Source: a virus
Length of the DNA: 64,000 bases
Reading direction: 5' to 3' (one strand)
Virus record (IMG/VR): IMGVR_UViG_3300040801_003693
Coordinates: 1 to 64,000 of that record
Positions 2,280 through 64,000 of the stretch are shown here, piece by piece. The notes under the pieces were generated by a model. It was not told where the DNA came from. It saw nothing but the letters and a program-made list of their open reading frames with translations, and did no database searches. A program made the position numbers and the translations under genes. Position 1 is the stretch's first letter, and each line of letters starts with the position of its first letter.

Positions 2280-2355
2280 TTTTTTACTCTGAGTATGTTT
2301 GTGAATAATTTGAAAAGGGAACTACACACATTACAAAAATTCGGCAAAAATATTT

Positions 2356-42915: not shown

Positions 42916-42978
42916 TTCTTTTCTTTGTATTATTTGTACAAAGAAAAAGGGGAGACATTGCCCCCTAATTAATATAAA

Positions 42979-43464: not shown

Positions 43465-43535
43465 GTTAAATCCTTTTGTATTTTGGTTACAAAAGAAAAG
43501 GGGGCAATGCCCCCAGTAATACTGTTAAACTTTCC

Positions 43536-44396: not shown

Positions 44397-44458
44397 GGCT
44401 TTTTCTTTGTATTGTTTAGTACAAAGAAAAAGGGGCATAAGCCCCCAATAGAAATTAA

Positions 44459-44824
44459 TTACAGCAATTCTATTACTGAATACTTGTTGTTCATAACCAG
44501 TAACCAAGATGGATGTGATTGCAAACTTTTCATAAACCAATCTCTAACTTTTTCCCATCCAGGGAAGTAAGATAGGTTTTCACTTATCTCCCAGTATTTA
44601 TGTATTTCATACCATGAGTATCCTATCAAACCTAACTGAAAGGATATTATAAGAATCTCTTCCCCCGGAGAGACACCTAGTTTGGTATAGATATGTGTAG
44701 CATCATGAACTTCTTCGCTACGCAGTTTTGTTTTATCCCAGTCATACTGAGCATCTAATCCATTGCGATCGCGAAACTGTTTAGCTAATTTTGCAACGTG
44801 TTTCTTTGCTTGACGATTATTCAT
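44459..44824 (-). CDS. Coq4-like HDxxH-x11-E protein, copy 1
   Basis: A 121-residue helical protein. EEVHDATHIYTKLGVSPGEE contains HDxxH followed by eleven residues and Glu, the metal-ligand spacing of Coq4-family proteins. Four more copies lie at 47502, 47932, 48410 and 50793. SPGEE is encoded over a dispersed palindrome (44658). HIP1 lies near the start (44765-44772). The function is unknown; the family link is to a C1-decarboxylase-type metal helper in quinone synthesis. Confidence 0.55.
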   Translation of the reverse strand: MNNRQAKKHVAKLAKQFRDRNGLDAQYDWDKTKLRSEEVHDATHIYTKLGVSPGEEILIISFQLGLIGYSWYEIHKYWEISENLSYFPGWEKVRDWFMKSLQSHPSWLLVMNNKYSVIELL

Positions 44825-44888
44825 TTAAATTTCTCCTTAGTTGGAAGTGAGTCAACTAAGAAGAAAAAAGGGAGTATGAATAAATCAA

Positions 44889-44972
44889 CTATCTATACGC
44901 ACAATCATTATTATTTTTCATCTTCAAACTCATTATTCCATCTGAACAAAATCTTATTTTATAATTCTTCAT
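44889..44972 (-). CDS. 27-residue micro-ORF between cassettes
   Basis: ATG 44972 opens 27 codons (starts MKNYKIRFCSDGIMSLK) and ends in TAG at 44889. It has an AAGGAAAA ribosome site and its own terminator-like leader (CTCCCTTTT at about 45011-45020). The gap between 44459-44824 and 45049-45549 is otherwise empty. It may encode a small peptide or be a leader. Confidence 0.4.
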   Translation of the reverse strand: MKNYKIRFCSDGIMSLKMKNNNDCAYR

Positions 44973-45048
44973 TATTTTTCCTTTTTGAGTTGAGTACCTT
45001 CTAAAGCTAAAAGGGAGTATTCTTTTAGCAGAAACGTTGGGCTTGACT

Positions 45049-45549
45049 TCAACAGAAACAGACCTTATTGCTTATCCTTTTTCTAAACAAATTGCTAATA
45101 TTTTTAAAGAAGTTGTCAGCTACTTCTACTACAGGTAATTCAATGTTGCCTATCAATACCATTCTCTCCCAGGAGGAAAGAACTAATCCAAGAAAGCTTT
45201 TGAATAAAGCTATAACATAATCTATATTATGTTCGTTGCTATATGCTTGAGCTTCTATTTCCCAATTACGTTTGTTGTAGTAGTTTTTAATCTCCTTGGT
45301 TATTTTTCCTTTGATGTTTAATTCTATACCCAGATTTTTATCTAAGTAATCTTGAAGTGCGTGTATTGCTTCATGAACAAATGTTGTCCAGGAAGTTTTC
45401 TTTTTGAGGATTATACTTTTAATTGAATGATCGTAACAGCCTTGGATTCTTTTATCTTTCATTACTATATCTTTCCACTCTACTGATACACCTATTTTGC
45501 GTACTAGTTTTAGCAAGGTATTTAGTTTTGTTTTAGGTAAATTTTTCAT
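45049..45549 (-). CDS. HExxH zincin-like protein, copy 2
   Basis: A 166-residue protein starting MKNLPKTKLN at 45549; the longer frame would cross a leader hairpin. FVHEAIHALQDYLD and WEIEAQAYSNEHN match the HExxH plus Glu layout of copy 1 (42979), including the AQAxSN pattern. Lysine-rich N-terminus. The leader hairpin is identical to that of 42466-42915. Confidence 0.65.
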   Translation of the reverse strand: MKNLPKTKLNTLLKLVRKIGVSVEWKDIVMKDKRIQGCYDHSIKSIILKKKTSWTTFVHEAIHALQDYLDKNLGIELNIKGKITKEIKNYYNKRNWEIEAQAYSNEHNIDYVIALFKSFLGLVLSSWERMVLIGNIELPVVEVADNFFKNISNLFRKRISNKVCFC

Positions 45550-45739
45550 TGTCTTTTCCTTTGTATTATTTGTACAAAGAAAAAGGGAGAAGTTTACTGG
45601 AGAGAATATCTTCCTAGTAAACTTCGGAGGAAACATATCTTAATAATTTAGAAAGAAATACCTTTGGGTTGAACGATTTACTTATAGAGAGTATTTATGT
45701 TAAGTTGGTAGGAAATAAAATATTATCTAAATAAGGATC

Positions 45740-45904
45740 ATGATTGGTTTTCTTATCTACTTAGCATTGATATTTTTATTGACTACAATTATTACTCCAA
45801 TTTGTAGTAGTACAATAGACGTTTTTTGGAAAGATATACTCATTGGAATTATTGTAGGAATAGTCTCTATTGTTGGATATTTGAAAGGAAAGGATGTTTT
45901 CTAA
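45740..45904 (+). CDS. 54-residue two-helix membrane protein
   Basis: ATG 45740 with AAGGAT a few bases upstream opens 54 codons on the plus strand ending TAA at 45902-45904. Two hydrophobic helices (GFLIYLALIFLLTTIITP and LIGIIVGIVSIVGYL) are joined by an acidic turn TIDVFWKD, with a basic C-terminus. The size and shape suit a holin, antiholin or other small phage membrane protein. It lies alone among minus-strand genes and has its own perfect terminator. Confidence 0.65.
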   Translation: MIGFLIYLALIFLLTTIITPICSSTIDVFWKDILIGIIVGIVSIVGYLKGKDVF

Positions 45905-45943
45905 ATTATATATAAAAGGGGATTATCCCCTTTTATATATAAT
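45905..45943. terminator. 17-bp perfect bidirectional terminator
   Basis: ATTATATATAAAAGGGG at 45905-45921 pairs with 45927-45943 around ATTAT. It serves the plus-strand micro-gene and the minus-strand gene ending at 45945. Confidence 0.8.
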
Positions 45944-45944
45944 T

Positions 45945-46367
45945 TTACATTAAACAAGCTTGAACTGAACCTAGAATAGCCGTTAGTTTTTTAGATTCTT
46001 GAGTTGTACCTTGACGACACTTCTCAAATAAATCTTGAAATGAAACTGTGTTTAGTAATTCAAAAGAATAACCAGTAACAGAAACTAACATAGACTCTTC
46101 TACGTTCTTTTTCAACAAGTCAATCCAAGCCACATTTTCAGAATGCAATTCGTAGTAGTCTACAGGTTCTAATGAAGAGACTAAATAATCTACTGTAGCA
46201 GACCAAGTTGCGGACATATCACTAATGCTGAAGATTAAATTATCTCCATCCCAACGGAATGAAGATACTTCAATCGGCAATGACATATCTACTTTTATAG
46301 GTAGTCCTTCTACCATTACAGTAGTAGACAAACTATTTGCAGGATTAACAAATACTAAATCAAACAT
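45945..46367 (-). CDS. MFTLVF-family protein, copy 1
   Basis: A 140-residue protein. MFDLVFVNPANSLSTTVMVEG, SLPIEVSSFRWDGDNLIF and a WSATVDYLVSSLEP helix match the proteins at 47000 and 51944-52403. A small beta-sheet domain followed by a helical part. The function is unknown. Leader hairpin at 46377-46401. Confidence 0.65.
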   Translation of the reverse strand: MFDLVFVNPANSLSTTVMVEGLPIKVDMSLPIEVSSFRWDGDNLIFSISDMSATWSATVDYLVSSLEPVDYYELHSENVAWIDLLKKNVEESMLVSVTGYSFELLNTVSFQDLFEKCRQGTTQESKKLTAILGSVQACLM

Positions 46368-46443
46368 GGATTTCTCCTTTATGAATTAAAGTTCAATAAA
46401 GAAGAAAAAGGGGGAGCGATAATACTCCCCAGCTTTCATAACC

Positions 46444-46830
46444 CTAAGCTTTATATGTCATTACTTCTATATACATATCCCTGTTTCTCTTTGAAGGGTT
46501 TGAGTTGTATGTAAAATCGTTTTGATGTATTTTGCTAGAGACAAATCCTAACTTCTCATACACACTCTTTCTATAATTCTCTCCTCCATCCAGACTATGA
46601 GCCTGACAAAAGATTGAATCATATTGATTTTTTTTAATAAACTCATTCCACTTACTATAAAGAAACTTACTTATGTAATATCTTTCTTTCTTAGAAAGAT
46701 AAGGATTAAAGTCAAAACTATTGTTTACTTTAAATTGAACGGAATAAACGCCTTCGCTAACTAAAGTAAATGTAATCTCAACTATGTTTCCTAAAATATC
46801 TTTCTCAAAAGTAATTTGTTTTAAATGCAT
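46444..46830 (-). CDS. GNAT-like paralogue 1
   Basis: A 128-residue protein with YSVQFKVNNSFDFNPYLSKKE, then KWNEFIK, then DGGENYRKSVYEKLGF. YR-x-YEKLGF resembles the last acetyltransferase (GNAT) motif. Four further copies lie at 48905, 49499, 49933 and 50302. Catalytic residues are not confirmed. Confidence 0.5.
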   Translation of the reverse strand: MHLKQITFEKDILGNIVEITFTLVSEGVYSVQFKVNNSFDFNPYLSKKERYYISKFLYSKWNEFIKKNQYDSIFCQAHSLDGGENYRKSVYEKLGFVSSKIHQNDFTYNSNPSKRNRDMYIEVMTYKA

Positions 46831-46860
46831 TGCAACCCTTTTATTATTGACGAATAAACA

Positions 46861-46941
46861 TCAATAAAAAGGGCGACATTTGACACGGGAGGCAATTTCA
46901 GGAGGAAGATTCTTCCTGAAAGGTCTGATATCCTTTTTCAT
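46861..46941 (-). CDS. 26-residue micro-ORF after a cassette hairpin
   Basis: ATG 46941 follows a TTCTTGA/TCAAGAA leader hairpin and opens 26 codons (starts MKKDIRPFRKNLPPEIA, ends TGA 46861). The peptide is basic. Its stop lies in the terminator of the next cassette. Either a very small protein or a relic cassette. Confidence 0.4.
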   Translation of the reverse strand: MKKDIRPFRKNLPPEIASRVKCRPFY

Positions 46942-46999
46942 TTTCTTGAATTAAACATCAAGAAAAAAGGGATTGCTCCCTTAATTCATAAATAATTAT

Positions 47000-47428
47000 T
47001 TATAGTCCACCATACACACACTCAATAGTCTCTTCTTGACAAGGAGTTCTAGGTGCGAAGGCAATAGTAAGTATTGGAAAAGTCAGTACTAATACTATTA
47101 TGAGAACCTGTAATATAAAACCTTTACTCCATATAGACTCTGGAGCATAAGTTAATATTTCAGGTTCGCTTGCCCAACCCTCAGAGGGAACTGGTTGATG
47201 ATCGACCAACTCCGGCTCTAAAAGTTGTATGAGGTACTGTAAGGTGTGAACCCATGCCTCACGACTTTCTTTATTTGGGTGTTCTATTTGGACAATCAAG
47301 TCGTTATTTTCCCAATGATATTCAACAATATCAATAGGTAAAGAGACTGGAACGTCAACAGGTACACCTTCAACAAAGATTGTGTTGGATAAGGACTTTT
47401 GGCAGTTGTTAAATACTAGTGTAAACAT
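47000..47428 (-). CDS. MFTLVF-family protein, copy 2, with membrane segment
   Basis: A 142-residue protein. MFTLVFNNCQKSLSNTIFVEG, SLPIDIVEYHWENNDLIV and the WVHTLQYLIQLLEP helix match copy 1. This copy ends with an extra hydrophobic segment (FILQVLIIVLVLTFPILTIAF) predicted to span a membrane. The gain of a C-terminal anchor within a paralogous set is notable. Confidence 0.65.
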   Translation of the reverse strand: MFTLVFNNCQKSLSNTIFVEGVPVDVPVSLPIDIVEYHWENNDLIVQIEHPNKESREAWVHTLQYLIQLLEPELVDHQPVPSEGWASEPEILTYAPESIWSKGFILQVLIIVLVLTFPILTIAFAPRTPCQEETIECVYGGL

Positions 47429-47501
47429 GAGATTTTTCCCTTGTAAAGTGCAATAAAAAAGGGAAAATAATAAAGGGTGATATTAAATCACCCTCTAAAA
47501 A

Positions 47502-47864
47502 TTAATTTAGAAGAAGCTGTACCTCTTTCCAAAACTCATCATCAAACTCAGGAAGTTTGTTTTTATTGTCTTTCCATACTTGAATGAAATGATTGTATTC
47601 TTCAACAATTAAAGCTTCTGGAAATATAATATTGTAATCAAACAACATTTGAATTCCACAATAAACTTTGTTCAATTCTTCATAGTCTTTATAACCCTGT
47701 TCTAAAAGAACAACCATTATTTCTTCTTTATAGGAAGGACCTAAATTGAAGAACACATGAACCATATCATGCTTTATTGCCTGCAATACTTTTGGAACTG
47801 ATAAGTTGTGCTTTTCCAACCACACTTTATAATCAGCAACAAAATACATAGCGTCAGTAGTCAT
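47502..47864 (-). CDS. Coq4-like HDxxH-x11-E protein, copy 2
   Basis: A 120-residue helical protein. IKHDMVHVFFNLGPSYKEE keeps HDxxH-x11-E. KVWLEKHNLSVPK near the start matches the other copies (WLEKNNLDLP). Leader hairpin TTTGTT/AACAAA at 47876-47897. Confidence 0.55.
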   Translation of the reverse strand: MTTDAMYFVADYKVWLEKHNLSVPKVLQAIKHDMVHVFFNLGPSYKEEIMVVLLEQGYKDYEELNKVYCGIQMLFDYNIIFPEALIVEEYNHFIQVWKDNKNKLPEFDDEFWKEVQLLLN

Positions 47865-47931
47865 TATAATTTTCCTTTGTTAGTAGAAATCAACAAAAGA
47901 AAAAAGGGAGACATTGCTCCCCCTCATTTAT

Positions 47932-48351
47932 TTATCTAAGACTGTTTAGAAACGCTTCCCTTCTTTCTACATAAAAGTTAAACTCATTGACAAATCTCCA
48001 AGGTATTTCTACCACTTTGTCATATAAAAACAGTACGTGCTTTTTGATAAACATATACTGCTCTTGAGTTAAGACTTCCCCTTTGCTTTCTATTTTATAG
48101 AAGTCATTTACATAATCATATGAAATAACATTTTCCATGCCATAATTTTGGGCGTACTCTATAAGAGATACTACTGTCTCTCCAAAAGGAGAAACACCCA
48201 TGTCGCAAAGAGTATGCATCATATCATGATACAAAAATCTATTATCCCCAGCAGGGATTTGAAGGTTATGCTTTTCAATCCAGTCGTAGTAGCACTGCAC
48301 TACTTCCAATACATCATTGTCTTTAACTAGATTAAATTTTGCGTTAGTCAT
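47932..48351 (-). CDS. Coq4-like HDxxH-x11-E protein, copy 3
   Basis: A 139-residue helical protein with YHDMMHTLCDMGVSPFGE, keeping HDxxH-x11-E, and YYDWIEKHNLQIP at the start. Leader hairpin TTCTTGA/TCAAGAA at 48357-48379. Very like neighbouring copies in layout. Confidence 0.55.
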   Translation of the reverse strand: MTNAKFNLVKDNDVLEVVQCYYDWIEKHNLQIPAGDNRFLYHDMMHTLCDMGVSPFGETVVSLIEYAQNYGMENVISYDYVNDFYKIESKGEVLTQEQYMFIKKHVLFLYDKVVEIPWRFVNEFNFYVERREAFLNSLR

Positions 48352-48409
48352 TGCTTTTCTTGAAGATAAACATCAAGAAAAAAGGGCGACAATTAAGCCG
48401 CCTTTAAAA

Positions 48410-48829
48410 TTAAACTTTATTTAACTCTTTATGAACCTTCACCCAAAAATGTTTAGGACGATGGTGTAGATGAATCCGAATGATTGGTAAAGCATATCTA
48501 TATCTTTTGACAATAGATATGTAAACACTATTCTTCATCTCCGAGGAGGGAAAAGAAAGAATGGAGTTTAATTGTTTGTAGACCGCTTCTACAAACTCTT
48601 TACGATGAACGCTTACGCATCCATACTCAATCTCTAACTCTATAAGCCTTATAGCTACCTCTTCCTCTGGAGAAGTAGAGAACTGACTAAGAACATGATA
48701 GAAATCATGCTCTCTCAATTCTTTATTATTTGCTTTAGGCAAATCAATTTTGTTTTTACTTAACCAAACTTTATAGTCGGATACATAAGAATCAATTTGC
48801 AAGTTAGCTTGAACATCTTTAATATTCAT
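48410..48829 (-). CDS. Coq4-like HDxxH-x11-E protein, copy 4
   Basis: A 139-residue helical protein. REHDFYHVLSQFSTSPEEE keeps HDxxH-x11-E. KVWLSKNKIDLPK matches the start motif of the family. Two palindrome variants fall in its codons (48537 and 48661). The basic C-terminus (HLHHRPKHFW) is unique to this copy. Confidence 0.55.
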   Translation of the reverse strand: MNIKDVQANLQIDSYVSDYKVWLSKNKIDLPKANNKELREHDFYHVLSQFSTSPEEEVAIRLIELEIEYGCVSVHRKEFVEAVYKQLNSILSFPSSEMKNSVYISIVKRYRYALPIIRIHLHHRPKHFWVKVHKELNKV

Positions 48830-48904
48830 TATTGTTTTCCTTGAAGTTAAACATCAAGAAAAAAGGGTGATTATATGCCACCCTTTTAAAACACTCTCAC
48901 GTTT

Positions 48905-49441
48905 TTAATAAATACCGAAATCCTCCATTATTTTGTTTACTAAATTATGATACTTAACCAAATCGCTACCCATGATTTTATTTGTTAAATAGACTACGTG
49001 ACAATATTTATACTCTTCCCACAATATTTTGTAGGCTTTAGTAAGATCCTTTGTCTTTTTTAAGACTTCTGAAATCTGGTAGTCTAACTCCCATTCTTCA
49101 TATATGTCTAATGTGTCTGTATTGATATCGTACTCCGAACCAAGATGAATCATTTCCCCGCTAGAGGAATAGAAACTAAACCCGGCTTTTTTAAACATTC
49201 TAGTCCTTTCAACTTGTCTTTCATCTCCGGAGAAAGGTATACACTTTAAATAAGCAAAACTATTATTCATCTTAAAATCTTTAAAAGAATTTAATATAAA
49301 CCTAGTAATTGCTATTTTAGATTTTACCTCCCCCATTGAATATGACCCGTTTACTTGAACGCAGACTGTATAAGAGTTATCAAAGTTAGGTTTAAAACTT
49401 AACTTTACGTTATCGCCACAAACATTATTTAAATAAAGCAT
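48905..49441 (-). CDS. GNAT-like paralogue 2, extended
   Basis: A 178-residue protein. TVCVQVNGSYSMGE, ITRFILNSFKDF and RTRMFKKAGF match the GNAT-like family, with an added C-terminal helical domain of about 75 residues (LTKAYKILWEEYKY). FSGDERQ is encoded over a palindrome (49219). Leader hairpin at 49448-49469. Confidence 0.5.
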   Translation of the reverse strand: MLYLNNVCGDNVKLSFKPNFDNSYTVCVQVNGSYSMGEVKSKIAITRFILNSFKDFKMNNSFAYLKCIPFSGDERQVERTRMFKKAGFSFYSSSGEMIHLGSEYDINTDTLDIYEEWELDYQISEVLKKTKDLTKAYKILWEEYKYCHVVYLTNKIMGSDLVKYHNLVNKIMEDFGIY

Positions 49442-49498
49442 TGTTTTTTCTTGAAATAAACATCAAGAAAAAAGGGCATAACGCCCTTATTATTAAAA

Positions 49499-49861
49499 TT
49501 ATTTTTTAGCTTTTAACTTCATCTTTATCTCCTCGGAGATGAATGCAATCTGTGTAGGCTTTTTATACTTGTATCTAAAACCCATTTTGTAATAAGCTTT
49601 TTTACGATACTCACCACCACCATCATCCTTGTGAGCCTCACAAGTAATGACATCAAAGTCAACTTCATCAATAAACAATTTCCAATGAACTAATAACCAT
49701 TTGGTAATAGCAAGCTTAGTTCTTTTTGGAATGTTTGGATTGATATCCAAACTATCATTTACTGTGAAGAATACTTCCCACACTTTCTTCTCCATCCGAA
49801 GAAAAGAGAAGTAAATGTGGTTGCCATCTATAATGGTTTCGTAATCTTTTAAATCGCACAT
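49499..49861 (-). CDS. GNAT-like paralogue 3
   Basis: A 120-residue protein; true start ATG 49861 (MCDLKDYET) since the longer frame crosses the hairpin at 49871-49888. FFTVNDSLDINPNIPKRTK, KWLLVHWKLF, DDGGGEYRKKAYYKMGF. Palindromes fall at 49523 and 49790. Confidence 0.55.
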   Translation of the reverse strand: MCDLKDYETIIDGNHIYFSFLRMEKKVWEVFFTVNDSLDINPNIPKRTKLAITKWLLVHWKLFIDEVDFDVITCEAHKDDGGGEYRKKAYYKMGFRYKYKKPTQIAFISEEIKMKLKAKK

Positions 49862-49932
49862 AATCTTTTCCTTGAAAATAACTTCAAGAAAAAGAAATAA
49901 GGGTGACTTAATAATCACCTCTTATAGAAGAA

Positions 49933-50244
49933 TTATTTTCTATAACATCTAGCTATAGAATTCTCTTCTTCAAAACCTAACTTTTTATAAACCTTTTCTC
50001 TGTACTCTCCTTCTCCATCTTCTTGATAGGCATAACATCTGATAATATCAAACGTCTGATTACTTAAGAAATGTTTCCAACTAGTTAATAACCATCTTGT
50101 AATTTTAATTTTATTTAGTTTGGATATTGAAGGGTCTATATCGTAGTAACCATTTATTTTAAAATCTACAGAGTACTCTTTAGGTTGCCAGGATTCAAAA
50201 GAAAGAGATACATTTATTCCGTTGATATTAGTAGAGTAATTCAT
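49933..50244 (-). CDS. GNAT-like paralogue 4
   Basis: A 103-residue protein; true start ATG 50244 (MNYSTNING). SVDFKINGYYDIDPSISKLN, RWLLTSWKHF, EDGEGEYREKVYKKLGF. Shortest member. Leader hairpin TTCTTGA/TCAAGAA at 50250-50271. Confidence 0.55.
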   Translation of the reverse strand: MNYSTNINGINVSLSFESWQPKEYSVDFKINGYYDIDPSISKLNKIKITRWLLTSWKHFLSNQTFDIIRCYAYQEDGEGEYREKVYKKLGFEEENSIARCYRK

Positions 50245-50301
50245 TGTTTTTCTTGATATAAACATCAAGAAATAAGGGCGAAATTGTCGCCCTTATTATT
50301 A

Positions 50302-50673
50302 TTAAAATACTTCTGTATAGATATTCTCTTCTTGAGAAATGAAACTCTCAGAGAAATATCCTAGATAACCTGTTCTTAAAACAGGAATAAACCCTAATTT
50401 TTTATATGCCTTTGTTCTATATTCTTTTTCTCCATCCTCTTTGTAAGGTATACAATATACCCACTCGAAGGTGTTAGAAGTAATAAAACTTTTCCAAACA
50501 TCTAACAGCCATTTGGTTATTAGATATTTATCTTTTTTAGACAAATTAGGATCTAAGTCGTGACTTCCATTAACTTTGAAATCTGCCATGTAACTATGGT
50601 TTTCGATTCCCGTTTTGAAAGTGAACACAACTTCGTTATCGTTAACAATTGTATTAAATTGAATAGTAGCCAT
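50302..50673 (-). CDS. GNAT-like paralogue 5
   Basis: A 123-residue protein; true start ATG 50673 (MATIQFNTIV). MADFKVNGSHDLDPNLSKKD, KWLLDVWKSF, EDGEKEYRTKAYKKLGF. Its leader carries the 12-bp arms at 50680-50713 and a nearly perfect hairpin at 50726-50763 (GACACTTTGACAC arms). Confidence 0.55.
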   Translation of the reverse strand: MATIQFNTIVNDNEVVFTFKTGIENHSYMADFKVNGSHDLDPNLSKKDKYLITKWLLDVWKSFITSNTFEWVYCIPYKEDGEKEYRTKAYKKLGFIPVLRTGYLGYFSESFISQEENIYTEVF

Positions 50674-50725
50674 AAGAATTTCTTCTTTGTTAATAAACAT
50701 CAACAAAGAAGAAAAAAATAAGGGA

Positions 50726-50763
50726 GACACTTTGACACAGGGCACAGCCCGTGTCAAAGTGTC
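50726..50763. terminator. GACACTTTGACAC hairpin
   Basis: GACACTTTGACAC then GGGC pair with GCCC then GTGTCAAAGTGTC with one bulged A. A related TTTGACACGGG occurs at about 46878. It lies upstream of 50302-50673, in place of the usual terminator stem. Confidence 0.55.
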
Positions 50764-50792
50764 GGTCGTGACATTACTGCCACCCTAAAGTA

Positions 50793-51161
50793 TTAAGCTG
50801 CTAATAGCTGATTGACTTTATCGAAGAATGTATAATTAAGCTCTACAAAATCTTTTGATAAGATATTATAAAACTTAACTAAACATTGATACTGTTCTCT
50901 ACTTAACTGTTCAGTTCCCTTAGAGATTTCTGAATAGTTAATAGCAGCAGTATCGTAGTCGAAAACAAATCCTTGTTCCACCATTGCGACTATACCTTCC
51001 TCCGGATAAGACACACCCAAGTCCGTTAGGACATGAACGTAATCGTGCATCCGAAAGAATTCACAGTCTGGTAAATCCAGATTATTCTTTTCCAACCACT
51101 TCAAATAAGCATCAACATAACCCTGTGGGTCGTTAGCTAAATGAAATTTAGTATTTAACAT
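50793..51161 (-). CDS. Coq4-like HDxxH-x11-E protein, copy 5
   Basis: A 122-residue helical protein: MHDYVHVLTDLGVSYPEE keeps HDxxH-x11-E, with YLKWLEKNNLDLPD at the start. The codons for YPEE overlie a palindrome (50998). Leader hairpin at 51164-51186. Confidence 0.55.
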   Translation of the reverse strand: MLNTKFHLANDPQGYVDAYLKWLEKNNLDLPDCEFFRMHDYVHVLTDLGVSYPEEGIVAMVEQGFVFDYDTAAINYSEISKGTEQLSREQYQCLVKFYNILSKDFVELNYTFFDKVNQLLAA

Positions 51162-51225
51162 TGTTCTTGAATATAAACATCAAGAAAAAAGGGCAGCATT
51201 TCTACTACCCTTGTATACACAGTTC

Positions 51226-51873
51226 TTAATAATTGCATTCGCTAATATCTGGGGCTGTGCATGAATCCCAATAAACAGTATCTTCTACTGTAATATTGGG
51301 AGAAAAAGAACTAGTTTGAAGAAGGATCATAGCAACCAATCCAAAAAACCTAAACCGATTCAGATTAAATGGATATGCTCGAACAGAATTCCACGAAGTT
51401 ACCCTCGTGAAATTTGGTTGCTTGATTTGATAAACATTGTATCGACAATTAGGTTGCCTGTTACGTTGTTCTACCAAGCATTGCATTATCTGCAATACTA
51501 AATATGGATAGCTTTCTAAAGCTACAGCAGCATACTCTAATGCAGAGTATCTGTTGTCCCATATTTTCTTCAATTTTGAGATAGAAGGTTTTGCTATTCC
51601 CATTCTTTCGAGCAGGATATCAGCTTCTGCCACCGTCGCCAAACACCCGTATGCTTGAATCAAGTGAACACACTCATGCGTAAAAATCGTAATCCTTTCT
51701 TGAGGAGCGAGATTTTCGTAATCATAGATTACAATTTTTTTATAAAATGCATTATAAATTCCTGACGTTCCCTCACGCTTCCCTTCATATAGCAATTTAT
51801 GACCAAAATCATCCACGATAACTTTTGCAAAAGTTTCTTCTAATCTTTTTAATTCTTTAATTGATACGCTCAT
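51226..51873 (-). CDS. HExxH zincin-like protein, copy 3, extended
   Basis: A 215-residue protein. ITIFTHECVHLIQAYG gives HExxH, and YSALEYAAVALESYP is the downstream Glu region. A C-terminal hydrophobic stretch (FRFFGLVAMILLQTSSF) and a Cys/Asp-rich tail could be a membrane anchor, absent from copies 1 and 2. Leader with 12-bp arms at 51879-51912. Confidence 0.6.
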   Translation of the reverse strand: MSVSIKELKRLEETFAKVIVDDFGHKLLYEGKREGTSGIYNAFYKKIVIYDYENLAPQERITIFTHECVHLIQAYGCLATVAEADILLERMGIAKPSISKLKKIWDNRYSALEYAAVALESYPYLVLQIMQCLVEQRNRQPNCRYNVYQIKQPNFTRVTSWNSVRAYPFNLNRFRFFGLVAMILLQTSSFSPNITVEDTVYWDSCTAPDISECNY

Positions 51874-54926: not shown

Positions 54927-55284
54927 TTTAGAGGATTATAAAATATCCTATGAGGTGACAGTATTGCCCAACGTATTATATGCAGAATTAGTAAATGCAA
55001 AAACTCCTTTAGTGTTTGATAGTTTTTATATTCCAGAAGAGTTAAAAAATTTTGCGCTTGAATGTAGATTTATTCTTTACGACAAAGATGGAGGATGTGT
55101 AGAGTTTTCTAACAACATTACTTTGGAACAGCAAATAGTTTACACGTTAAATTTAGTTCCATTAAAGATGATACATAAATTATGTTCTTCAGTTAAAAAT
55201 CAATATTCAAAAGAATATCCTGTAATTGCGGGGTCTGATTCAATAGCAGATTCTTCTACGCTATCTTCTAATGATTCAACATAA
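54916..55284 (+). CDS. hypothetical protein overlapping the giant gene antisense
   Basis: A 122-residue protein from ATG 54916 (MNINLEDYK); ATG 54907 is an alternative and the further GTG 54886 is unlikely. The body is beta-rich (FILYDKDGGCVEFSN). The last 28 residues (SKEYPVIAGSDSIADSS) are Ser-rich and lie over the minus-strand giant gene: the two stops overlap tail to tail by 85 bases. Confidence 0.6.
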   Translation: MNINLEDYKISYEVTVLPNVLYAELVNAKTPLVFDSFYIPEELKNFALECRFILYDKDGGCVEFSNNITLEQQIVYTLNLVPLKMIHKLCSSVKNQYSKEYPVIAGSDSIADSSTLSSNDST

Positions 55285-58200
55285 AGTGCTTGTTGAGTAG
55301 CACTACTGATTTCTTCATCTCCGGAGAAAGTAGAATAAGTAATATACTGAGTCATTCCATCTTCAGCGTACACTGCAACATCATCAACTGTATTCTGTTC
55401 ATCTGTTTGTCTTACTTCTCTAATATAATTTTCAGCGTGTTGTAAAGTAGTTTCTAATATAGAAGGTTGAGGGGAATCAACTATAAAGTTTTGTATTTGT
55501 TGACCAACCATCATTCCTAATATAGTAGATGCAATTGCACCAACTCCAGTGCTAATTATTCCTCTCATATTATTATATTTATCCATATCCAAAGACATCT
55601 TTGCCTGACCGAAAGGTGTCATTTTATTCATGAGTACATTACTAAAATATTCAGTACCGAACATACCGATAGCACTCATAGTCATTTCTCGTGCAGCTAA
55701 ACCTGCAATTGCCTTACCCGTATCACCATCACTATTAGCGATCGCCATTCTTGCTTTAAAAGCAGTACCGGATGCAACTTGAGCTACACCCCCAGCACCT
55801 TTGCTCATACCTTTGGTACCTAGCATATAAGATTTAACGTGCATAGCAGAACTAATAGAGTTACCCATTACCTGTTGGAATGCCTCTGGGTTAACTTCAC
55901 CAGAAGCCAGAGCCTGACCTGCCATAATAAGTGCGGGTAAGAAAACTAATTCAGCAGCGAGATCGGCGTTTCTTGTTCCGGCTAATTTACCAAAAGCAGA
56001 TTTAGAAGCTTTAGTATTTAGTCGAGGATTATGTCTTGTCGAATATCCTTGTTGAGATTCTTGAATAATTTGACGAGTTACTTCTTCCATTACATCTATA
56101 TCGGGGTCTGCAACACCTGCTGCTACTTTAGTTTGAATTTGTCTCTGAACTACATTTTTAGCTTCTTCTTGAGATAGTCCCATTGCAGTTAAATTCTTTA
56201 CCATACCTTCGGCAGTATAGGTTTTAGAAGGATTAAGATTATTAGTACCTTCATAGATTTTCATTACAGAGTTTGCCATTGCTCCAAACTGAGTAGAGTT
56301 TAATCTACTCATAATTAGTTCGCTTGAGCCTTCAGCAGATTGAATAAGCTGTTTGTAAAATTCCATTAGCTGCATTTTATCAGGGGCATTACTTAATCCT
56401 CCTTGCTCCATTAATTTTAAAAGTAATTCATCCGGTTGTAACTGATGGTTATTATCTTTACTTTTAAAAGTGGCTAACATAGAATTCATAAAATATGCCA
56501 TTGACTGAGGGGAAATCTTTCCTGCTGTTGCAAGCTGTACGTAAGCAGCACTTGTAGGGTCTTGAGAAATATCCATTGTAGAACTTTCCCCTTTAGAACC
56601 AGAACTCAGTTTACTTCTTACTTGATTGTAATTAGCAAACTCTACTAATTTCTCTCCTTTCTCCCCGGCAAAAGTTTCAATTGATTGCTTCATCTGAACG
56701 TACTGATGAGCGTGAAGCAATTTATCTTCTGTTGATATTTTACTGTAATGTTCTATTACATCTTTTCCTACTAAGCTTTTAAAACTTTCATAATATTCTT
56801 GCTGCTCGATGCTTAAGGTATCAAAGTAGTTTTTATCTCTAACAACTTCTTCCATACCTTGAACTAAATAATCTAATTTAGATTTTTCCTGTACCAATTC
56901 TGGACTATTTAAGTTCTTCATCAACATACTTTGCAAAGTTCTGCCTGTTGATTCTGCACTGTTCCAAGCTTTATTTTCTGCATCATAAGAAAGTTCTTGA
57001 CCTCTAGCTTTCTCAAATGCAAATGCTGTAGCTAAATTTAATAAATCTTGTTTAGTTTTATAAGATGCAACCAATGCCATTTTATTTACGTTCATTTCAT
57101 TGATTGGTTTATAATCAGAAGATACTGCGGTTTTAATACTAGTTGCAATTTCTCCTTGTTCATCTACAAATCCCAATCTTTTCATATAGTGTTTTTCTAC
57201 ATTGGAATCAGATATATTAATTTCAAATCTTCCCAAAACTTCTGCTTGAGCATTCTTATTCTTTTCATCTGTATATTCTGTCTTTAAAGTTTGTACTGTA
57301 TTAACTAATTTATCTAACTGCACTAAAGATTTTAATCCTGTACCAGGACCAAACTTACCTACAATTAAATCGATTATTCTTTCTCTATCTTCATCACTAT
57401 CTGCATTACGATAAGATTCAATGTCTTTATTAATTTCATTTAAAAATTCAACAGAATCTTTTGGCTTAATCGAATCTCGCATTAACTGATTTATAATTTG
57501 TAAGAATCCACCCATTTGCATAGAACGGGCACGTCCGGATTCAGCAGACTTCATCATATCAGTATAAGCATCCTCTCCCATATTTGCTTTTACCATATCT
57601 CCAATCTTCCCATCTGTATCGTTTTCCAATAAAAATGACAATGCTAAAAAAGGAGATTCAGTATATAACAAAGAAGCCATACTATTATACGTCTTGCCTA
57701 AAATCACAGAACCAGCTTGACCTAAAGTCTTGAGCATCATCTCCCACTGATCTGTATTTACTGCCGTACCCGCAGTACCTCTAGATTGATATTTAGATAA
57801 CTGTTCCCCAGCAGAAGTTGTAGAAAATATTCTTGTAACGTAGTCAGTAATACCTTCCTCTCCGGAGGAGACAGCCTGTTGTAAATCGGTTCTAATTTGC
57901 TCTCTATATTCAGGAGTAGATTCTAATAGTGATTTAGCAAAAGTGTTTTGTGGATCTTGTCCAATCAGCATTGTTTTAAATGCTTCATCATTCATTAAGG
58001 CTTCTTTATCTTGAGCAATACTAGTTACTGCTTGATGTAAAGGACGAATGTTATTAATAACATCTTCCATCCCTCCAAATAATCCTCTACCTTGCTCAAT
58101 TAAAGTAAACAGTGTTCCAGTATCCATACCTCCTAAAATCTTCTCATCTACTTTAAGATAATTGGAAACGTACTTGACGCTAGCCTTTCTCATCTCTTGC

Positions 58201-61200
58201 ATTGATGTAGATTTATTAGCTAGCTCTACTGAATGCTTTAAGTCATCTCTTTGCTGTACTAATCTAGAAATTTTAGTATCGGTCTTTTCTAATTCAGCTT
58301 GCATTATAGCTAGCTTTTCTGGATCTGTAGTTTGGGGTAGTCTCTGTTCTATTTTAGATTTACTTATTTCGTAGCGAGCAATTAATTGATTTGTTTGCTC
58401 TACTCTCAACTCAGTAGTTTTCATGTTACTAATAATTGCAGATACCGAGTCCCCATCAAAGTCTCCTCCTTGAGATTGATAAGGTCCTATTGGATTAATC
58501 ATTCCTAATGTCTGGTTTCTTTTACCAGAGAATCTAATTGATACCCCCATCTCTTCTAAAGAATTATCTAAATCTTCTAAATTAAAAACATTGTATTGAG
58601 TAAGTTTATTAATCTCAAAGTTTCCTAAAGGAGGAGATCTCCACATTTGAGTCTGTGATAAGTTTAAATTAGTAAAAGTATGAGTAATTAATGATTCTAA
58701 TCTTTGATTAATAGTTTTTAAATCTATCGGAGTAGCACTAGGGTTTAAATCTGTTTCTAACTGTGATACTCTACTATTAAACTTTTCAATATGAGAATTC
58801 ATTTGACTCTTCTTAAAAAAGTCTCCGTAATCTGCTTCTAATCTTTCTACATAATCTGATACTATCTTCTTAGTACTAGCAATTTTTGATTGAATAGTAT
58901 TCGCATCAATGTTAACTCTGTCTTGATGCATTTGATTTAAAAGCTTTGTAGTACCTTTTCTTAACTCCCCTTCTAGAGAACTAACTCTAAGTTTGGGAAC
59001 AAATGTATTACTACTTCCTAATTGCAATCCTTCTATTACAGTAGGAGTTTGTCTAAAATATCTTTCTTGAGAAGTAATATTTTTTAAAGTCTTTTTACTT
59101 AATACTTCATCTTTATTATTTCTAAATATAAACTCCTTCCCTGGAGAATTCATACTATTAACAGCCATGCTTTGCAACAAATGCATTTCGGATACTGCTG
59201 TTAGTCTTACATAGTAATCACCCTCTGCACTGTTAGCATTCCTTTTTAAACCTTGATAGTATTCAATTCTTTGTTCAATATCAGAAGCAATTTTCATTAA
59301 ATCAGAATCGTTTTCCGCACTTTGTATTCTAGATACTAAATGTTTTGATTCACTGACTAAAGTATTTAAATCGTAAGTACCTACTGGAGAAATACCTTGG
59401 TGTAACATTTTATATTGAGATTCAATCAACTTTCTTTCTGTTGAAATCCTACCTTTACGTCTTATTAAATTCTTACGTTGAGCTTCCAACTCTGGACTAA
59501 TTGAATTACCTCTAGCTAATCTTTCAACAGTTGATTCAGGAGTTTCTCCCACTGTTTTATTTGGACTTATATCTTCTAATTGTTTTGCAATGTTGTTTAG
59601 ATTCTTATCTACTTTTTTAATTCTTTTATCTAGTACTGCGATCGCCTTTAATCTATCTTCCGCTGCGGCTCCTCCAAACTTATTGAACAAAGCTTCGGGA
59701 CCAATTAGTGCTTTTTCTGGAACAAACAAAGAGGCAGCGGCTGTAAAAGTACTACCATCTAATCCTACTCTGGCACCAAATTGAGTTTGGAATCTAGAAT
59801 TAATTAATTCTGATTGAACTTCAATTGGAAAGTTAAGTGCTGTTTCTTGAAATGTTTCAATCTTCTTAGCCATATCTGAAGCAATCTCAAACTCTCCCGT
59901 TTCACTATCACTTAAATAAATTTTGTCTAATACTTGGTCTACATCACTACGAGCAGCTAATCCTTCCCACAATACTAATTGAGACTTAACTGTTTCTGCT
60001 ACAAATTCTCCATATTGATCCCCTAACACTTTAAGGTCATCAGGAGCTAGCGTAAAACTAGTAATAGTTCTCTTCTTATCAAACTTTACTTTATTACCTT
60101 CTACTACTAAATGCGGAAAAGAAAACGCCATGCGACTAGCACCAGTTACCTGCATTCCTTTAATTACCGCCTGGGAGTGAGATATATCTCCTAACTTGTT
60201 TTCTAACAATTTATACTGGGTAGAAATGTCTTCTAATTCACCCATTGTAGTTGAGAGTCCGATACTAACTGTAGCTTGTATTTGTCCTAACGTTGCTCCA
60301 CTTTTAATCTGAGTTATTAAAGACTTTGCATATTCACTATCTCTTGCAGCTATTAAAGATTTGTTTTTAGTATCTCCTTCTAATATTGTCAGCAGCATTT
60401 CTTTTTCTGAAGAGGAATATCTAAACCCAGCAGCAGAAGTAATCTCTTTTAATGTAGAGAATAAAGAGTACTTTCCTTTATATACTTTAAAATCTTGAGC
60501 AGTAATTACACCACTATCATAAAATCCGATAAACTGACTTTTAAAATAAGAACTTCTAGCAGTACTGCTAATTAAATCTACTGCTTCTAAATTATTAGTT
60601 GCAGCAATAAATTGAGTTTGAGAACCACCATATATAGAGCCAAGTACACTAGACAATACATTTCTTAATGCAGGTACGTTTCCTTTACTTAATGCTCCCG
60701 CTTGCGTACTGTATTCCTCTCCTACTAAATGTTGTGCTTCTAAATAAGCTTTGTTTCTAGAAGACATTGATACTTTAGATTGAGAACCAGCAGTAGAAGA
60801 AAACATACCTACTACTCTAGAATAATTAGCAATTCTATTTAAAATAGAACGAGCTTCTTTTCTCTTCTCTTCATTATCTAAATTATTTATATCTTCCCCG
60901 GCGATAAAAGCTAATTTGTTTAAAGTTACATCATCATCTAAGTTAGCTGCTTCAACTGCAATCTGGTCGGCTCCCATTAACTGTAAGGTTAAATCTATTC
61001 CTCCAGCAAGCATTCCTAATTCTCTACCACGACCAGAACTATCTAAATTTAAATAGCCATTTTTGATTATGTCTCCAGTAGGGTCACTGAGTAAATTACT
61101 GACTTTAGATTTTAATCTAACATCTGCTCCTCTTACTCCCGCTAAAGTATCGGCAATATCCTGCATTGATATGTAACCTAAAGTGCGAATGTTAATGTCA

Positions 61201-61760
61201 CTTACATCCGACTTCATTGAATTTATTAGCTGCTCTGCTATATCTATATCTGTAGGGTTTGTGCTGTCCCCCATTTTAGTTGTTAATGTTTTTAACTTAT
61301 ACATATCTGATAAATAGTTACCTAAACCAGCACCTGCTGATAGTCGGGTTAATTCACTTAATGCAGCTTGCTTTCCAGTTTGGTCAAACATCTCCGTACC
61401 AAAACTAAGCATTAAAGATGCAGCTAAAGTTTTACTATCGTTGTTTAGCAAAGCATCTTTATATATTTGTCTACCCCCTTTTGTATAACTTAATATTTGA
61501 GCGCCATGCTCAAACATATAAGATTTAAAGTTAGAAGGGTTTGCTACTCCTTGAATTTGTTCTATACCAATACTGCTACCGAGGAAAGCACCTTTTGAAT
61601 TACGGTTCCATGATTGAGCTATATCTCTAATAAAAGTTCCGTAGGCATAAATAGGAACACCTTTAAATAAACCACCCGCTTGAGATTCATTTCTTCCCCC
61701 TGCATAATTTACTTTTGTTCTGTCATAATTAATTTCTACTAAAATTTCATTCGACTGCAT
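55200..61760 (-). CDS. giant DFDGD-motif protein, candidate virion RNA polymerase
   Basis: A 2186-residue protein with GGDFDGDSVSAII at residues 1098-1110 (DFDGD 1100-1104, bases 58449-58463). GKRNQTLGMINPIGPYQSQ just before it fits the catalytic-barrel context of RNA polymerase beta'-type subunits, in which the three Asp bind Mg. The length and the single-polypeptide layout resemble the giant RNA polymerases of crAss-like phages (gp66 type), which are packaged and injected. Repetitive helical flanks are rich in Lys, Glu, Gln and Ser, and hydrophobic helices near 1980-2140 (AIASTILGMMVGQQI) may be membrane-active. The frame continues upstream without a stop to UGA 61896, so ATG 61760 may not be the real start. 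Confidence 0.65.
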   Translation of the reverse strand: MQSNEILVEINYDRTKVNYAGGRNESQAGGLFKGVPIYAYGTFIRDIAQSWNRNSKGAFLGSSIGIEQIQGVANPSNFKSYMFEHGAQILSYTKGGRQIYKDALLNNDSKTLAASLMLSFGTEMFDQTGKQAALSELTRLSAGAGLGNYLSDMYKLKTLTTKMGDSTNPTDIDIAEQLINSMKSDVSDINIRTLGYISMQDIADTLAGVRGADVRLKSKVSNLLSDPTGDIIKNGYLNLDSSGRGRELGMLAGGIDLTLQLMGADQIAVEAANLDDDVTLNKLAFIAGEDINNLDNEEKRKEARSILNRIANYSRVVGMFSSTAGSQSKVSMSSRNKAYLEAQHLVGEEYSTQAGALSKGNVPALRNVLSSVLGSIYGGSQTQFIAATNNLEAVDLISSTARSSYFKSQFIGFYDSGVITAQDFKVYKGKYSLFSTLKEITSAAGFRYSSSEKEMLLTILEGDTKNKSLIAARDSEYAKSLITQIKSGATLGQIQATVSIGLSTTMGELEDISTQYKLLENKLGDISHSQAVIKGMQVTGASRMAFSFPHLVVEGNKVKFDKKRTITSFTLAPDDLKVLGDQYGEFVAETVKSQLVLWEGLAARSDVDQVLDKIYLSDSETGEFEIASDMAKKIETFQETALNFPIEVQSELINSRFQTQFGARVGLDGSTFTAAASLFVPEKALIGPEALFNKFGGAAAEDRLKAIAVLDKRIKKVDKNLNNIAKQLEDISPNKTVGETPESTVERLARGNSISPELEAQRKNLIRRKGRISTERKLIESQYKMLHQGISPVGTYDLNTLVSESKHLVSRIQSAENDSDLMKIASDIEQRIEYYQGLKRNANSAEGDYYVRLTAVSEMHLLQSMAVNSMNSPGKEFIFRNNKDEVLSKKTLKNITSQERYFRQTPTVIEGLQLGSSNTFVPKLRVSSLEGELRKGTTKLLNQMHQDRVNIDANTIQSKIASTKKIVSDYVERLEADYGDFFKKSQMNSHIEKFNSRVSQLETDLNPSATPIDLKTINQRLESLITHTFTNLNLSQTQMWRSPPLGNFEINKLTQYNVFNLEDLDNSLEEMGVSIRFSGKRNQTLGMINPIGPYQSQGGDFDGDSVSAIISNMKTTELRVEQTNQLIARYEISKSKIEQRLPQTTDPEKLAIMQAELEKTDTKISRLVQQRDDLKHSVELANKSTSMQEMRKASVKYVSNYLKVDEKILGGMDTGTLFTLIEQGRGLFGGMEDVINNIRPLHQAVTSIAQDKEALMNDEAFKTMLIGQDPQNTFAKSLLESTPEYREQIRTDLQQAVSSGEEGITDYVTRIFSTTSAGEQLSKYQSRGTAGTAVNTDQWEMMLKTLGQAGSVILGKTYNSMASLLYTESPFLALSFLLENDTDGKIGDMVKANMGEDAYTDMMKSAESGRARSMQMGGFLQIINQLMRDSIKPKDSVEFLNEINKDIESYRNADSDEDRERIIDLIVGKFGPGTGLKSLVQLDKLVNTVQTLKTEYTDEKNKNAQAEVLGRFEINISDSNVEKHYMKRLGFVDEQGEIATSIKTAVSSDYKPINEMNVNKMALVASYKTKQDLLNLATAFAFEKARGQELSYDAENKAWNSAESTGRTLQSMLMKNLNSPELVQEKSKLDYLVQGMEEVVRDKNYFDTLSIEQQEYYESFKSLVGKDVIEHYSKISTEDKLLHAHQYVQMKQSIETFAGEKGEKLVEFANYNQVRSKLSSGSKGESSTMDISQDPTSAAYVQLATAGKISPQSMAYFMNSMLATFKSKDNNHQLQPDELLLKLMEQGGLSNAPDKMQLMEFYKQLIQSAEGSSELIMSRLNSTQFGAMANSVMKIYEGTNNLNPSKTYTAEGMVKNLTAMGLSQEEAKNVVQRQIQTKVAAGVADPDIDVMEEVTRQIIQESQQGYSTRHNPRLNTKASKSAFGKLAGTRNADLAAELVFLPALIMAGQALASGEVNPEAFQQVMGNSISSAMHVKSYMLGTKGMSKGAGGVAQVASGTAFKARMAIANSDGDTGKAIAGLAAREMTMSAIGMFGTEYFSNVLMNKMTPFGQAKMSLDMDKYNNMRGIISTGVGAIASTILGMMVGQQIQNFIVDSPQPSILETTLQHAENYIREVRQTDEQNTVDDVAVYAEDGMTQYITYSTFSGDEEISSATQQALYVESLEDSVEESAIESDPAITGYSFEY

Positions 61761-61898
61761 ATTAGCACCGAGTATTCTAACATCTCTTAGTACTTCTTTT
61801 GCATCTTCAAAGTAAAATGATGCAGCATTACTAGTTGCAGTACCTGTAGTAAAAGAAGGTTTAGACTGAACCTTTTCTATTAAGTTACTTGCTACTCA
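61761..61898 (-). other. in-frame UGA joining two halves of the giant gene
   Basis: The upstream frame ends in UGA (61896-61898). The same frame is open for the next 45 codons, reading VASNLIEKVQSKPSFTTG, continuing FYFEDAKEVLRDVRILGAN, and running into the ATG at 61760. The peptide is protein-like and no canonical start lies between. The two genes are therefore one reading frame with a single stop, either a readthrough site, a nonsense change or a decayed junction. Confidence 0.7.
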
Positions 61899-64000
61899 AA
61901 ACTGGTTACGAGAATCTACTACTCTATCTTTTATATAATCTCCCGCAGCTTCATTCCATTTATATACCCAAGTTTTATTATCACTGCTATCAAACTGTAT
62001 TATCTCTCCGGAGGAGGCAAGTATGTTTTTAATAGCACTCCAGCTATCTACTCCTAATGCTTGTTGTAAATCGTCAGTAGATACTGTTGCTCTAAGTTTA
62101 CTGCCCTGATAACCTTTAACTGCACGATCTACAAAACCCTGTCGCATTCCACTGGAACCTCCGAATTCAGGGTTTGCATAATAGTAATCACTGTAAGCAC
62201 CTTCTAACTGCATCAGCATTACAGAAGGACCATAGCGTTGAGAAGAACCTAAGAATCCTCTTACGGCAGAAGCATGAGTATCTATACTTAATAATGTAGC
62301 TCTAAGTAATTCTGCTCCTACACCGTCATAGGTATCTTCTTCTCTAATTCCAAATTCAGTTGCTACTTGTTTTCTGATTGCTTCTAATTCTAAGGATAAC
62401 TCCGCACTTAATACAGGTGCTATCCTATCTGCATATAATGCACCTAAAGAATATTTAGTAAAGTTGAAATTATTTCTATATCCATCTGCTAATCCACCTT
62501 GAATATCTTTAACGTATAATTGTCTTAATTGATCTACAGTTTTAACCGTAGTTGTCTGACCCACGTTAGAAAATCTATTTGTATAAACCCCACTAAAATT
62601 ATCAACAATATCTTGATAACTTTGAGATAAATCTCTTAAAGGTCTAGAACCAATTACGTTTTTAATTCTTTGTGGAATTTGAGATGCTTTCTTTTTTTGG
62701 TCAAAGTAGAATTGCATTACAATTCCATCTTCTCCAGATAAGCTTTCCAACTGTTCTCTATAATCATCTGTTGTTTGTCTAGCAAAGTCGTCTCCTAAAA
62801 AAGCAATAGTTTTAAAATAACTCTCTGCTTCTTCTACTCTTAATATTGCTCCTACGTGAGCATCCTCTATAATTTTTAAAGAGGTAACATCTCCTGTTTT
62901 CTCATGCTTGTGATAAGGAAGCATATTATTTAAACCAAACTTAATACCTTCAAAATAATTTGATGTTTCTCTACTACCACCTCCTTCTGCAACTGCCATA
63001 TAAAGCAATTCACCCGTACCCAAATCTGAAGTAGCTCCAAAAGAAGCGGGAGTATTCATTAATGCAAATTTATTTAACGCTCCTACTCCTTCATATCCCG
63101 CTGTATTAATTACGTTAACAGTATCGTATCTTCTATCGTTAACTCCATATGCAGGTCTTTTTCTTCTTGCTTGCATTTTAGAATAAGTATTTGCCTGCCC
63201 GTATAACAAGAACGATTCAAACTTCTCTGTAGATAAATTCTTAATCGTTTTATTTAAATCTCTATTATATAAATAATCTTTTTGAGCAGAAACAAAATCA
63301 AATCTTACGTCTGCAAATGTATCGTCATCTCTACTCAATAATGTATTTAATCTGCCAATAATAGAATCTTCTGCCGATAAGTTAGCACCACCTAATAATA
63401 ATGCTTTACGAATGTCTACGTTATCCGTAGAAGCATAAGCTTTTATCTTATTAGTAATCTCTAATAATTCTGATAATCTACTTGTGTCCCCCGGCTTGAC
63501 ATTAGTTAAATTACGAATAGTTTGAGAAACATCTCCACTATCTTGTTTGTACTTAGCTTCAAACTGTGCTAATCCTAACAGCACTCTTTCTTTATCTATA
63601 CTAAGTAAACTGTTAATGTCTCCTGTAGAATCAAATATTCTATTTAAGTAATTAACGCTACCTGTAATTAAATTGTCATAGCTTTCCGTATTGACAGTGC
63701 TGTATCGTGTTACAAATTCATTCTTAGGAAATCTTACCAAGTTTAAATTAGCAGATTCAGATGCAACAGAAGCGATTAAAGATAGCGTGCTTTCTATAGG
63801 AGATAATGTTTCTCTTTGTCCTCTTCTAATTAAAACTTTATTTCCATTACGTTCAAAACCAGTAGCTATATCGCTGTTGGACATATTTACAAATTCTGTT
63901 TCACTGATTAATTTAGATTTGTTTATCTCTAATACAAAACCTTCACCTGCTCCAGAACCTGAAGATAAAGTTGTAAATTTATATTTTAATTGACTACCTC
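61896..64000 (-). CDS. upstream half of the giant reading frame, incomplete at window edge
   Basis: At least 701 codons, open to the right edge; the ATG at 63884 is internal-looking because the frame before it (LSSGSGAGEGFVLEINKSK) is also protein-like. Helical and Ser/Asp-rich with no motif I can name (YLNRIFDSTGDINSLLS). Near its end SSGEIIQFDSS is encoded over a dispersed palindrome (62003). It shares its frame with the DFDGD protein across a single UGA, so together they would make a protein of more than 2,900 residues. Confidence 0.65.
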   Translation of the reverse strand, partial: GSQLKYKFTTLSSGSGAGEGFVLEINKSKLISETEFVNMSNSDIATGFERNGNKVLIRRGQRETLSPIESTLSLIASVASESANLNLVRFPKNEFVTRYSTVNTESYDNLITGSVNYLNRIFDSTGDINSLLSIDKERVLLGLAQFEAKYKQDSGDVSQTIRNLTNVKPGDTSRLSELLEITNKIKAYASTDNVDIRKALLLGGANLSAEDSIIGRLNTLLSRDDDTFADVRFDFVSAQKDYLYNRDLNKTIKNLSTEKFESFLLYGQANTYSKMQARRKRPAYGVNDRRYDTVNVINTAGYEGVGALNKFALMNTPASFGATSDLGTGELLYMAVAEGGGSRETSNYFEGIKFGLNNMLPYHKHEKTGDVTSLKIIEDAHVGAILRVEEAESYFKTIAFLGDDFARQTTDDYREQLESLSGEDGIVMQFYFDQKKKASQIPQRIKNVIGSRPLRDLSQSYQDIVDNFSGVYTNRFSNVGQTTTVKTVDQLRQLYVKDIQGGLADGYRNNFNFTKYSLGALYADRIAPVLSAELSLELEAIRKQVATEFGIREEDTYDGVGAELLRATLLSIDTHASAVRGFLGSSQRYGPSVMLMQLEGAYSDYYYANPEFGGSSGMRQGFVDRAVKGYQGSKLRATVSTDDLQQALGVDSWSAIKNILASSGEIIQFDSSDNKTWVYKWNEAAGDYIKDRVVDSRNQF

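Follow-up and report, generated by a model that had tools for sequence, protein, structure and literature searches.

A giant protein encoded in part within the window, the 64,000-nt stretch of virus DNA analysed here, contains a DFDGD motif that is deeply conserved among relatives built as giant single open reading frames (ORFs), and it has a PLD-like region and lies near head genes. We propose with moderate confidence that this protein is a virion-carried, single-chain RNA polymerase (RNAP) of the two-barrel type, of which we infer both the fold and the activity. Motif logic, conservation and precedent point to this as the most probable role of the protein, and we call it a two-barrel RNAP as a hypothesis only.

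The original prediction had placed the magnesium-binding signature of multisubunit-type RNAPs at this site in a 2186-residue phage protein. As predicted, the minus strand at 58449-58463 reads GACTTTGATGGGGAC, which encodes DFDGD as residues 1100-1104 of a 2186-aa ORF at 55200-61760(-), and the local context, RNQTLGMINPIGPYQSQGGDFDGDSVSAII, includes every element that had been named around it, the R-N, the P and GGDFDGD. The pattern D[FYW]DGD occurs only once across the 135,938-nt contig in open frames of at least 60 aa, where 0.024 occurrences are expected from composition, and the expectation for DFDGD in the 2186-aa ORF alone is 0.0005. A DFDID that resembles the motif of the crAss polymerase by chance is also present in a VWA/metallopeptidase-like protein at window 1059-2321 (-), and thus a D-x-D-x-D motif by itself proves little. 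In an alignment of 13 diverged members, the identity of which was mostly 20-40% in the core (71% for L013/L015 and 56% for L025/L026), D-[F/Y/W]-D-G-D was found in 13/13, the aromatic second residue being the sole varying position. The three Asp and the Gly are invariant, and the F/Y/W variation is that of the two-barrel RNAPs. The site is real and ancient, and it is very probably functional. The features of the giant frame are listed in Table 1.

Table 1. Features of the giant reading frame in window coordinates (residues are those of the 2186-aa ORF unless stated otherwise).
Feature	Position	Strand	Residues and remarks
Upstream ORF, 1467 aa, N-terminal part of the giant protein	61896..64000 (to contig 66299)	-	PLD-like double-HKD region lies beyond the window
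K-x-x-Q-x-x-QR-x-KN-x-x-G block, another second-site candidate	62649..62690	-	upstream ORF aa 1204-1217
In-frame TGA splitting the giant frame	61896..61898	-	coding triplet at the homologous place in relatives
45 in-frame codons, TGA to ATG	61761..61895	-	homologous to L012 and L008
2186-aa ORF (P0001), Ma-LMM01 gp80 family (phrog_31006)	55200..61760	-	phrog_31006 E 1.5e-126
[NS]-P-[ST]-N-[LF]-KS-x(4)-HG block, tentative candidate for a second, beta-like site	61503..61538	-	aa 75-86
R-x-x-P-x-G block	58623..58640	-	aa 1041-1046, RSPPLG; R and G invariant
RN-[KQ]-[TS]-L block	58506..58520	-	aa 1081-1085; leads into the DFDGD segment
DFDGD, candidate Mg2+-binding Asp triad	58449..58463	-	aa 1100-1104; D-[FYW]-DGD in 13/13 relatives
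Coiled-coil-like insertion of variable length after DFDGD	58191..58427	-	aa ~1112-1190; only coiled-coil proteins match
Q-x-RGLFGG block, family-specific	58071..58094	-	aa 1223-1230
G-x-AG-x-x-[IV]LGK-x-YN block, candidate bridge-helix-like motif	57684..57725	-	aa 1346-1359
Q-x-x-RD-x-IK-x-K block, candidate trigger-loop-like motif (D-x-x-K)	57459..57488	-	aa 1425-1434
Hydrophobic membrane-helix-like segment	55905..55961	-	aa 1934-1952
Hydrophobic membrane-helix-like segment	55506..55562	-	aa 2067-2085

The 2186-aa ORF had been taken for a native single gene, which was wrong: a ~3,700-residue protein is interrupted here by one in-frame TGA, and the ORF accounts for its C-terminal ~60%. The 1467-aa ORF upstream (contig 61896-66299) shares its reading frame, with the TGA at 61896-61898 as the sole interruption, and 45 homologous codons lie between this TGA and the ATG at 61760. 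The phrog_31006 profile has 3,562 positions, equal to the length of Ma-LMM01 gp80, and the upstream ORF matches its N-terminal half. By tblastn, the 2186-aa ORF matched the C-terminal part of Ma-LMM01 gp80 with 24% identity and 99% coverage, and matches were also obtained in MaMV-DC, MaMV-DH01, other Microcystis phages and Microcoleus phage My-WqHQDG. The gp80-family proteins of Ma-LMM01, MaMV-DC, MaMV-DH01 and My-WqHQDG are true homologs with the same DFDGD and blocks, in keeping with the cyanobacterial-phage setting that had been suggested. Ma-LMM01 gp80, which is annotated as hypothetical, is one uncut gene of 3,562 codons, whereas the copy in the window is split by the TGA. In IMG/VR, 12 further distinct family members were found as single ORFs of 3,565-4,712 aa, some of them truncated by the sequence end, and no new relatives were found in GTDB genomes and two further virus scans, so that the alignment could not be made deeper. 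Two of the IMG/VR relatives (L014 and L016) are longer by several hundred residues in the part that separates the conserved N-terminal blocks from the DFDGD region.

The TGA at 61896-61898 could be explained by an error of assembly, by mutation, by a true split into two subunits or by readthrough. Recoding of TGA throughout the genome was rejected, because no other long gene is altered when the sequence is read with table 4 (TGA=W). One isolated TGA inside a giant frame could also mean that the window copy is a decayed or unused polymerase inactivated by this stop, and stops inside RNAP genes have been reported in crAss-like phages too (PMC7886860). We consider such decay unlikely, given that there is no other damage, that all conserved blocks are kept in both halves, that an ATG follows 45 codons after the TGA, and that an assembly error, a real two-subunit split or readthrough may account for the TGA.

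Conservation within the C-terminal half is highest in R-x-x-P-x-G, RN-K-x-L, DFDGD and the blocks downstream of it, and the first of these may be compared with the R-x-P that precedes DxDxD in YonO, gp64, gp66 and gp96. In the upstream-ORF block at aa 1204-1217, the K, Q, QR, KN and G are invariant in 13/13. The second, beta-like barrel with its conserved lysine(s) was not located in the profile comparison, which was silent, and the two blocks given for it in Table 1 are candidates. In favour of the polymerase reading, the strand propensity of the DFDGD block is high (98th percentile of windows). Against it, the candidate bridge-helix block LGKxYN is strand-prone by composition, and in the trigger-loop-like block R stands before D where a hydrophobic residue is usual.

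The D-x-D-G-D pattern is also similar to the first residues of an EF-hand loop, which would be the basis for reading the site as an EF-hand-like or DxDxDG calcium loop. In the alignment, however, the Gly expected at position 6 is replaced by S, P, T, N or M, and position 12 is without Glu/Asp except in one member. The loop is thus incomplete in nearly all members; a canonical EF-hand is refuted by these two positions, and we regard a calcium loop of this kind as very improbable. A HAD-type site was also rejected, as motif I of that type requires a hydrophobic strand before and T/V after DxD-x and the DFDGD context does not fit it.

We compared the family with a reference set consisting of phi14:2 gp66 and 80 crAss-type loci, YonO and its relatives (36 sequences in total), and P23-45 gp64 and gp96. 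The known set shares R-x-P, then DxDxD, then [IV]G-x3-N (in YonO and gp66) and then hydrophobic-D-x2-K, and the giant-protein family has, in the same order, R-x-x-P, D-b-D-G-D, LG-x3-N and RD-x2-K. The equivalents of the last two blocks are I592 G593 N597 and D625 K628 in YonO, which are invariant, and V1547 G1548 N1552 and D1612 A K1615 in crAss gp66. The conserved columns after DFDGD contain exactly one [LIVM]G-x3-N and exactly one D-x2-K, and column shuffles gave both patterns in range in 0/20,000 cases (single rates of 0.0016 and 0.0069), a figure that is optimistic because the shared blocks were picked after looking, with patterns from the known families.

The profile search that had been proposed as a check was conducted with hhalign. 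When the family core was compared with 77 crAss gp66 sequences, the top match placed DFDGD on DFDID in register with a P of 0.067, scoring above 200/200 column-shuffled decoys, and no match for the family core was found with YonO. The bridge/trigger segment alone gave the same register non-significantly, 85/200 decoys being equally high. As a positive control, gp66 and YonO, both proven polymerases, were compared, resulting in a P of 0.051 and a wrong alignment; thus, hhalign has little power here and cannot decide. In a flank test, in which the ten residues on each side of the motif were given a position-specific score trained on four known families, 31% of 78 decoy DxDxD sites matched or beat the family median, compared with 1-4% for left-out known RNAP families. 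By this measure of resemblance, which is not a strictly defining feature, the residues beside DFDGD appear unlike those of the known single-chain RNAPs. The RNAP signature put forward in the original prediction is retained in part: the near-invariant D-[F/Y/W]-D-G-D and the bridge- and trigger-like blocks are in its favour, whereas the flanks are not.

Searches of Pfam, PHROGs and PDB sequences with the protein and the family profiles gave no significant RNAP match, the only matches being phrog_31006, the function of which is not annotated, and coiled-coil or chance noise. The proposed likeness to crAss-like gp66 did not hold up as homology detectable in sequence, since tblastn of gp66 in phages returned no Microcystis or Microcoleus phage among the matches listed and the hhalign match was the one noted above, and we would not assign the giant protein to the crAss gp66 family.

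AlphaFold2 was applied to residues 301-1500 with 14 sequences (pLDDT 60, pTM 0.32) and to residues 900-1460 with 15 sequences (pLDDT 59.7, pTM 0.29), and both models, with values of <50 at DFDGD, were mostly helices and coiled coils away from the motif. Foldseek found no polymerase match for the 900-1460 model, which is of low confidence at the motif. With 14-15 sequences only, the models say little either way on the motif region, and a double-psi barrel around DFDGD is not supported by these predicted structures of low confidence there. The predominance of helices and coiled coils would suit a giant ejected or tape-measure-like structural protein for DNA ejection or host takeover, in which DFDGD would be a structural Ca2+/Mg2+ site or an unknown non-polymerase catalytic site. 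Such a role, which we regard as possible though less likely than a polymerase, would also be in line with the membrane-like segments and the head-gene neighbourhood, with flanks of DFDGD unlike those of known RNAPs, and with the weakness of a single motif as seen in the chance DFDID at window 1059-2321. However, charged residues (R, D and K) in several strictly conserved blocks around and after the motif give this region the look of an active site, and the pattern of polymerases is D-[FYW]-D-G-D.

In the upstream ORF, two HKD-type motifs (HxK with downstream G-[ST]-x-N / GSSN and E) were found, as in the PLD superfamily, the first being spaced one residue shorter than the classic motif. Among the relatives, PLDc_2 matched L013 with 30.3 bits against a cut-off of 27 and others near the cut-off, whereas the Pfam search of the window's own copy gave no PLDc_2 match, the PLD-like call there being by motif only. 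To our knowledge, the combination of a PLD-like domain and a polymerase in a single chain would be without precedent. Two membrane-like segments are present near the C-terminus of this protein, and several relatives have one or two. The genes for the portal (contig 69.5-71.1 kb) and the major head protein (78.6-79.9 kb) lie within 14 kb, confirming the predicted position near the virion operon. Other products encoded in the window include ribonucleotide reductase, thymidylate synthase, a UvsX-like recombinase and an RIIA-like protein.

Elsewhere in the window, about a dozen short intergenic gaps between small ORFs at 42293-51873 (-) share one design, a GC hairpin followed by a U-run that also forms the 5' arm of another hairpin, which varies and ends immediately upstream of the next ATG. 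Terminator-like sites numbered 35 against 6 expected, and sigma-70-like promoters were not enriched (54 against 62). The loop core GATGTTTA is present in eight gaps, and in other gaps the Shine-Dalgarno sequence lies within the 3' arm, as in CTCCTTTGTT..AACAAAGGAG at 51873. The design could be an RNA switch or a processing element, and a similar arrangement was observed at Ma-LMM01 gp066. Repeats at 46543-46595, 49577-49629, 49972-50024 and 50389-50441 lie inside neighbouring small ORFs, which suggests a paralogous family of small proteins. In Ma-LMM01, six and a half 42-bp direct repeats at 43271-43551 (L164:13272-13552), as annotated, separate the early genes from gp064, a gene of 5 kb.

With respect to precedents, the N4 virion RNAP is a T7-type polymerase. 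No match to a T7/N4-type single-subunit RNAP domain was found in Pfam or PHROGs, and a polymerase of this type was rejected for the giant protein. The N4-type (schitovirus) virion RNAP, an ejected polymerase of ~3,500 residues (PMC12633501), is comparable in size and proposed role. P23-45 gp96, a giant virion tail protein found solely via a conserved DFDGD, proved to be an active RNAP, and it resembles the giant protein in having this motif with no other detectable RNAP similarity (PMC10770324). The blocks of gp96 itself are R-N-P upstream and I-D-F-P-K downstream. It differs in that its polymerase is N-terminal on a tape measure and in that its activity and structure have been demonstrated, and the accessible part of that report does not mention a PLD domain, whereas the giant protein has a PLD-like N-terminus. 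The phi14:2 gp66 protein is likewise a large single chain with the same block order (R-I-P, DFDID, VGITAN and VDNAK), but it has no significant homology, is 2,180 aa long and carries Ile in place of the Gly of DGD. SPbeta YonO, with RSP, DNDGD, IGEYSN and IDFAK, also keeps the block order but is a prophage-encoded protein of 840 aa that serves late genes (PMC5467207).

We propose that DFDGD provides the catalytic Asp triad in a single-chain double-psi RNAP that has diverged strongly. Nucleotide addition would depend on Mg2+ held by this triad, and LGKxYN and RDxIKxK would lie at the bridge helix and the trigger loop, respectively, as in YonO and crAss gp66. The polymerase part would begin at about the last third of the upstream ORF and end near residue 1450 of the 2186-aa ORF. 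The ~3,700-residue protein would probably be packaged in the virion and enter the cell with the DNA, and the first phage genes could be transcribed during DNA entry, as by P23-45 gp96; both the virion location, for which the closeness to the head genes speaks, and the early transcription are what we infer.

For bloom-forming Microcystis, Ma-LMM01 and its relatives serve as model phages. The MaMV-DH01 genome is reported in one study to be without an RNAP (PMC9927357). In another, the promoters of all temporal classes of Ma-LMM01 were SigA-like and a phage motif was not detected (PMC5780444), which counts against a phage polymerase. The gp80-type protein is not considered as a polymerase in the accessible part of either, and we found no paper proposing an RNAP in the Ma-LMM01 phage group. 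It is, in our estimation, an even prospect that cyanophage virions carry an unrecognised lineage of single-chain two-barrel RNAPs, within a protein of 3,500-4,700 residues that combines it with a PLD-like nuclease/transferase and membrane segments, in phages thought to be wholly host-transcribed. If true, this would run counter to the published statements that host SigA alone is used (PMC5780444) and that MaMV-DH01 has no polymerase (PMC9927357). The picture of early infection would then change, and a deep branch would be added to the phage/RNAi clade of two-barrel polymerases.
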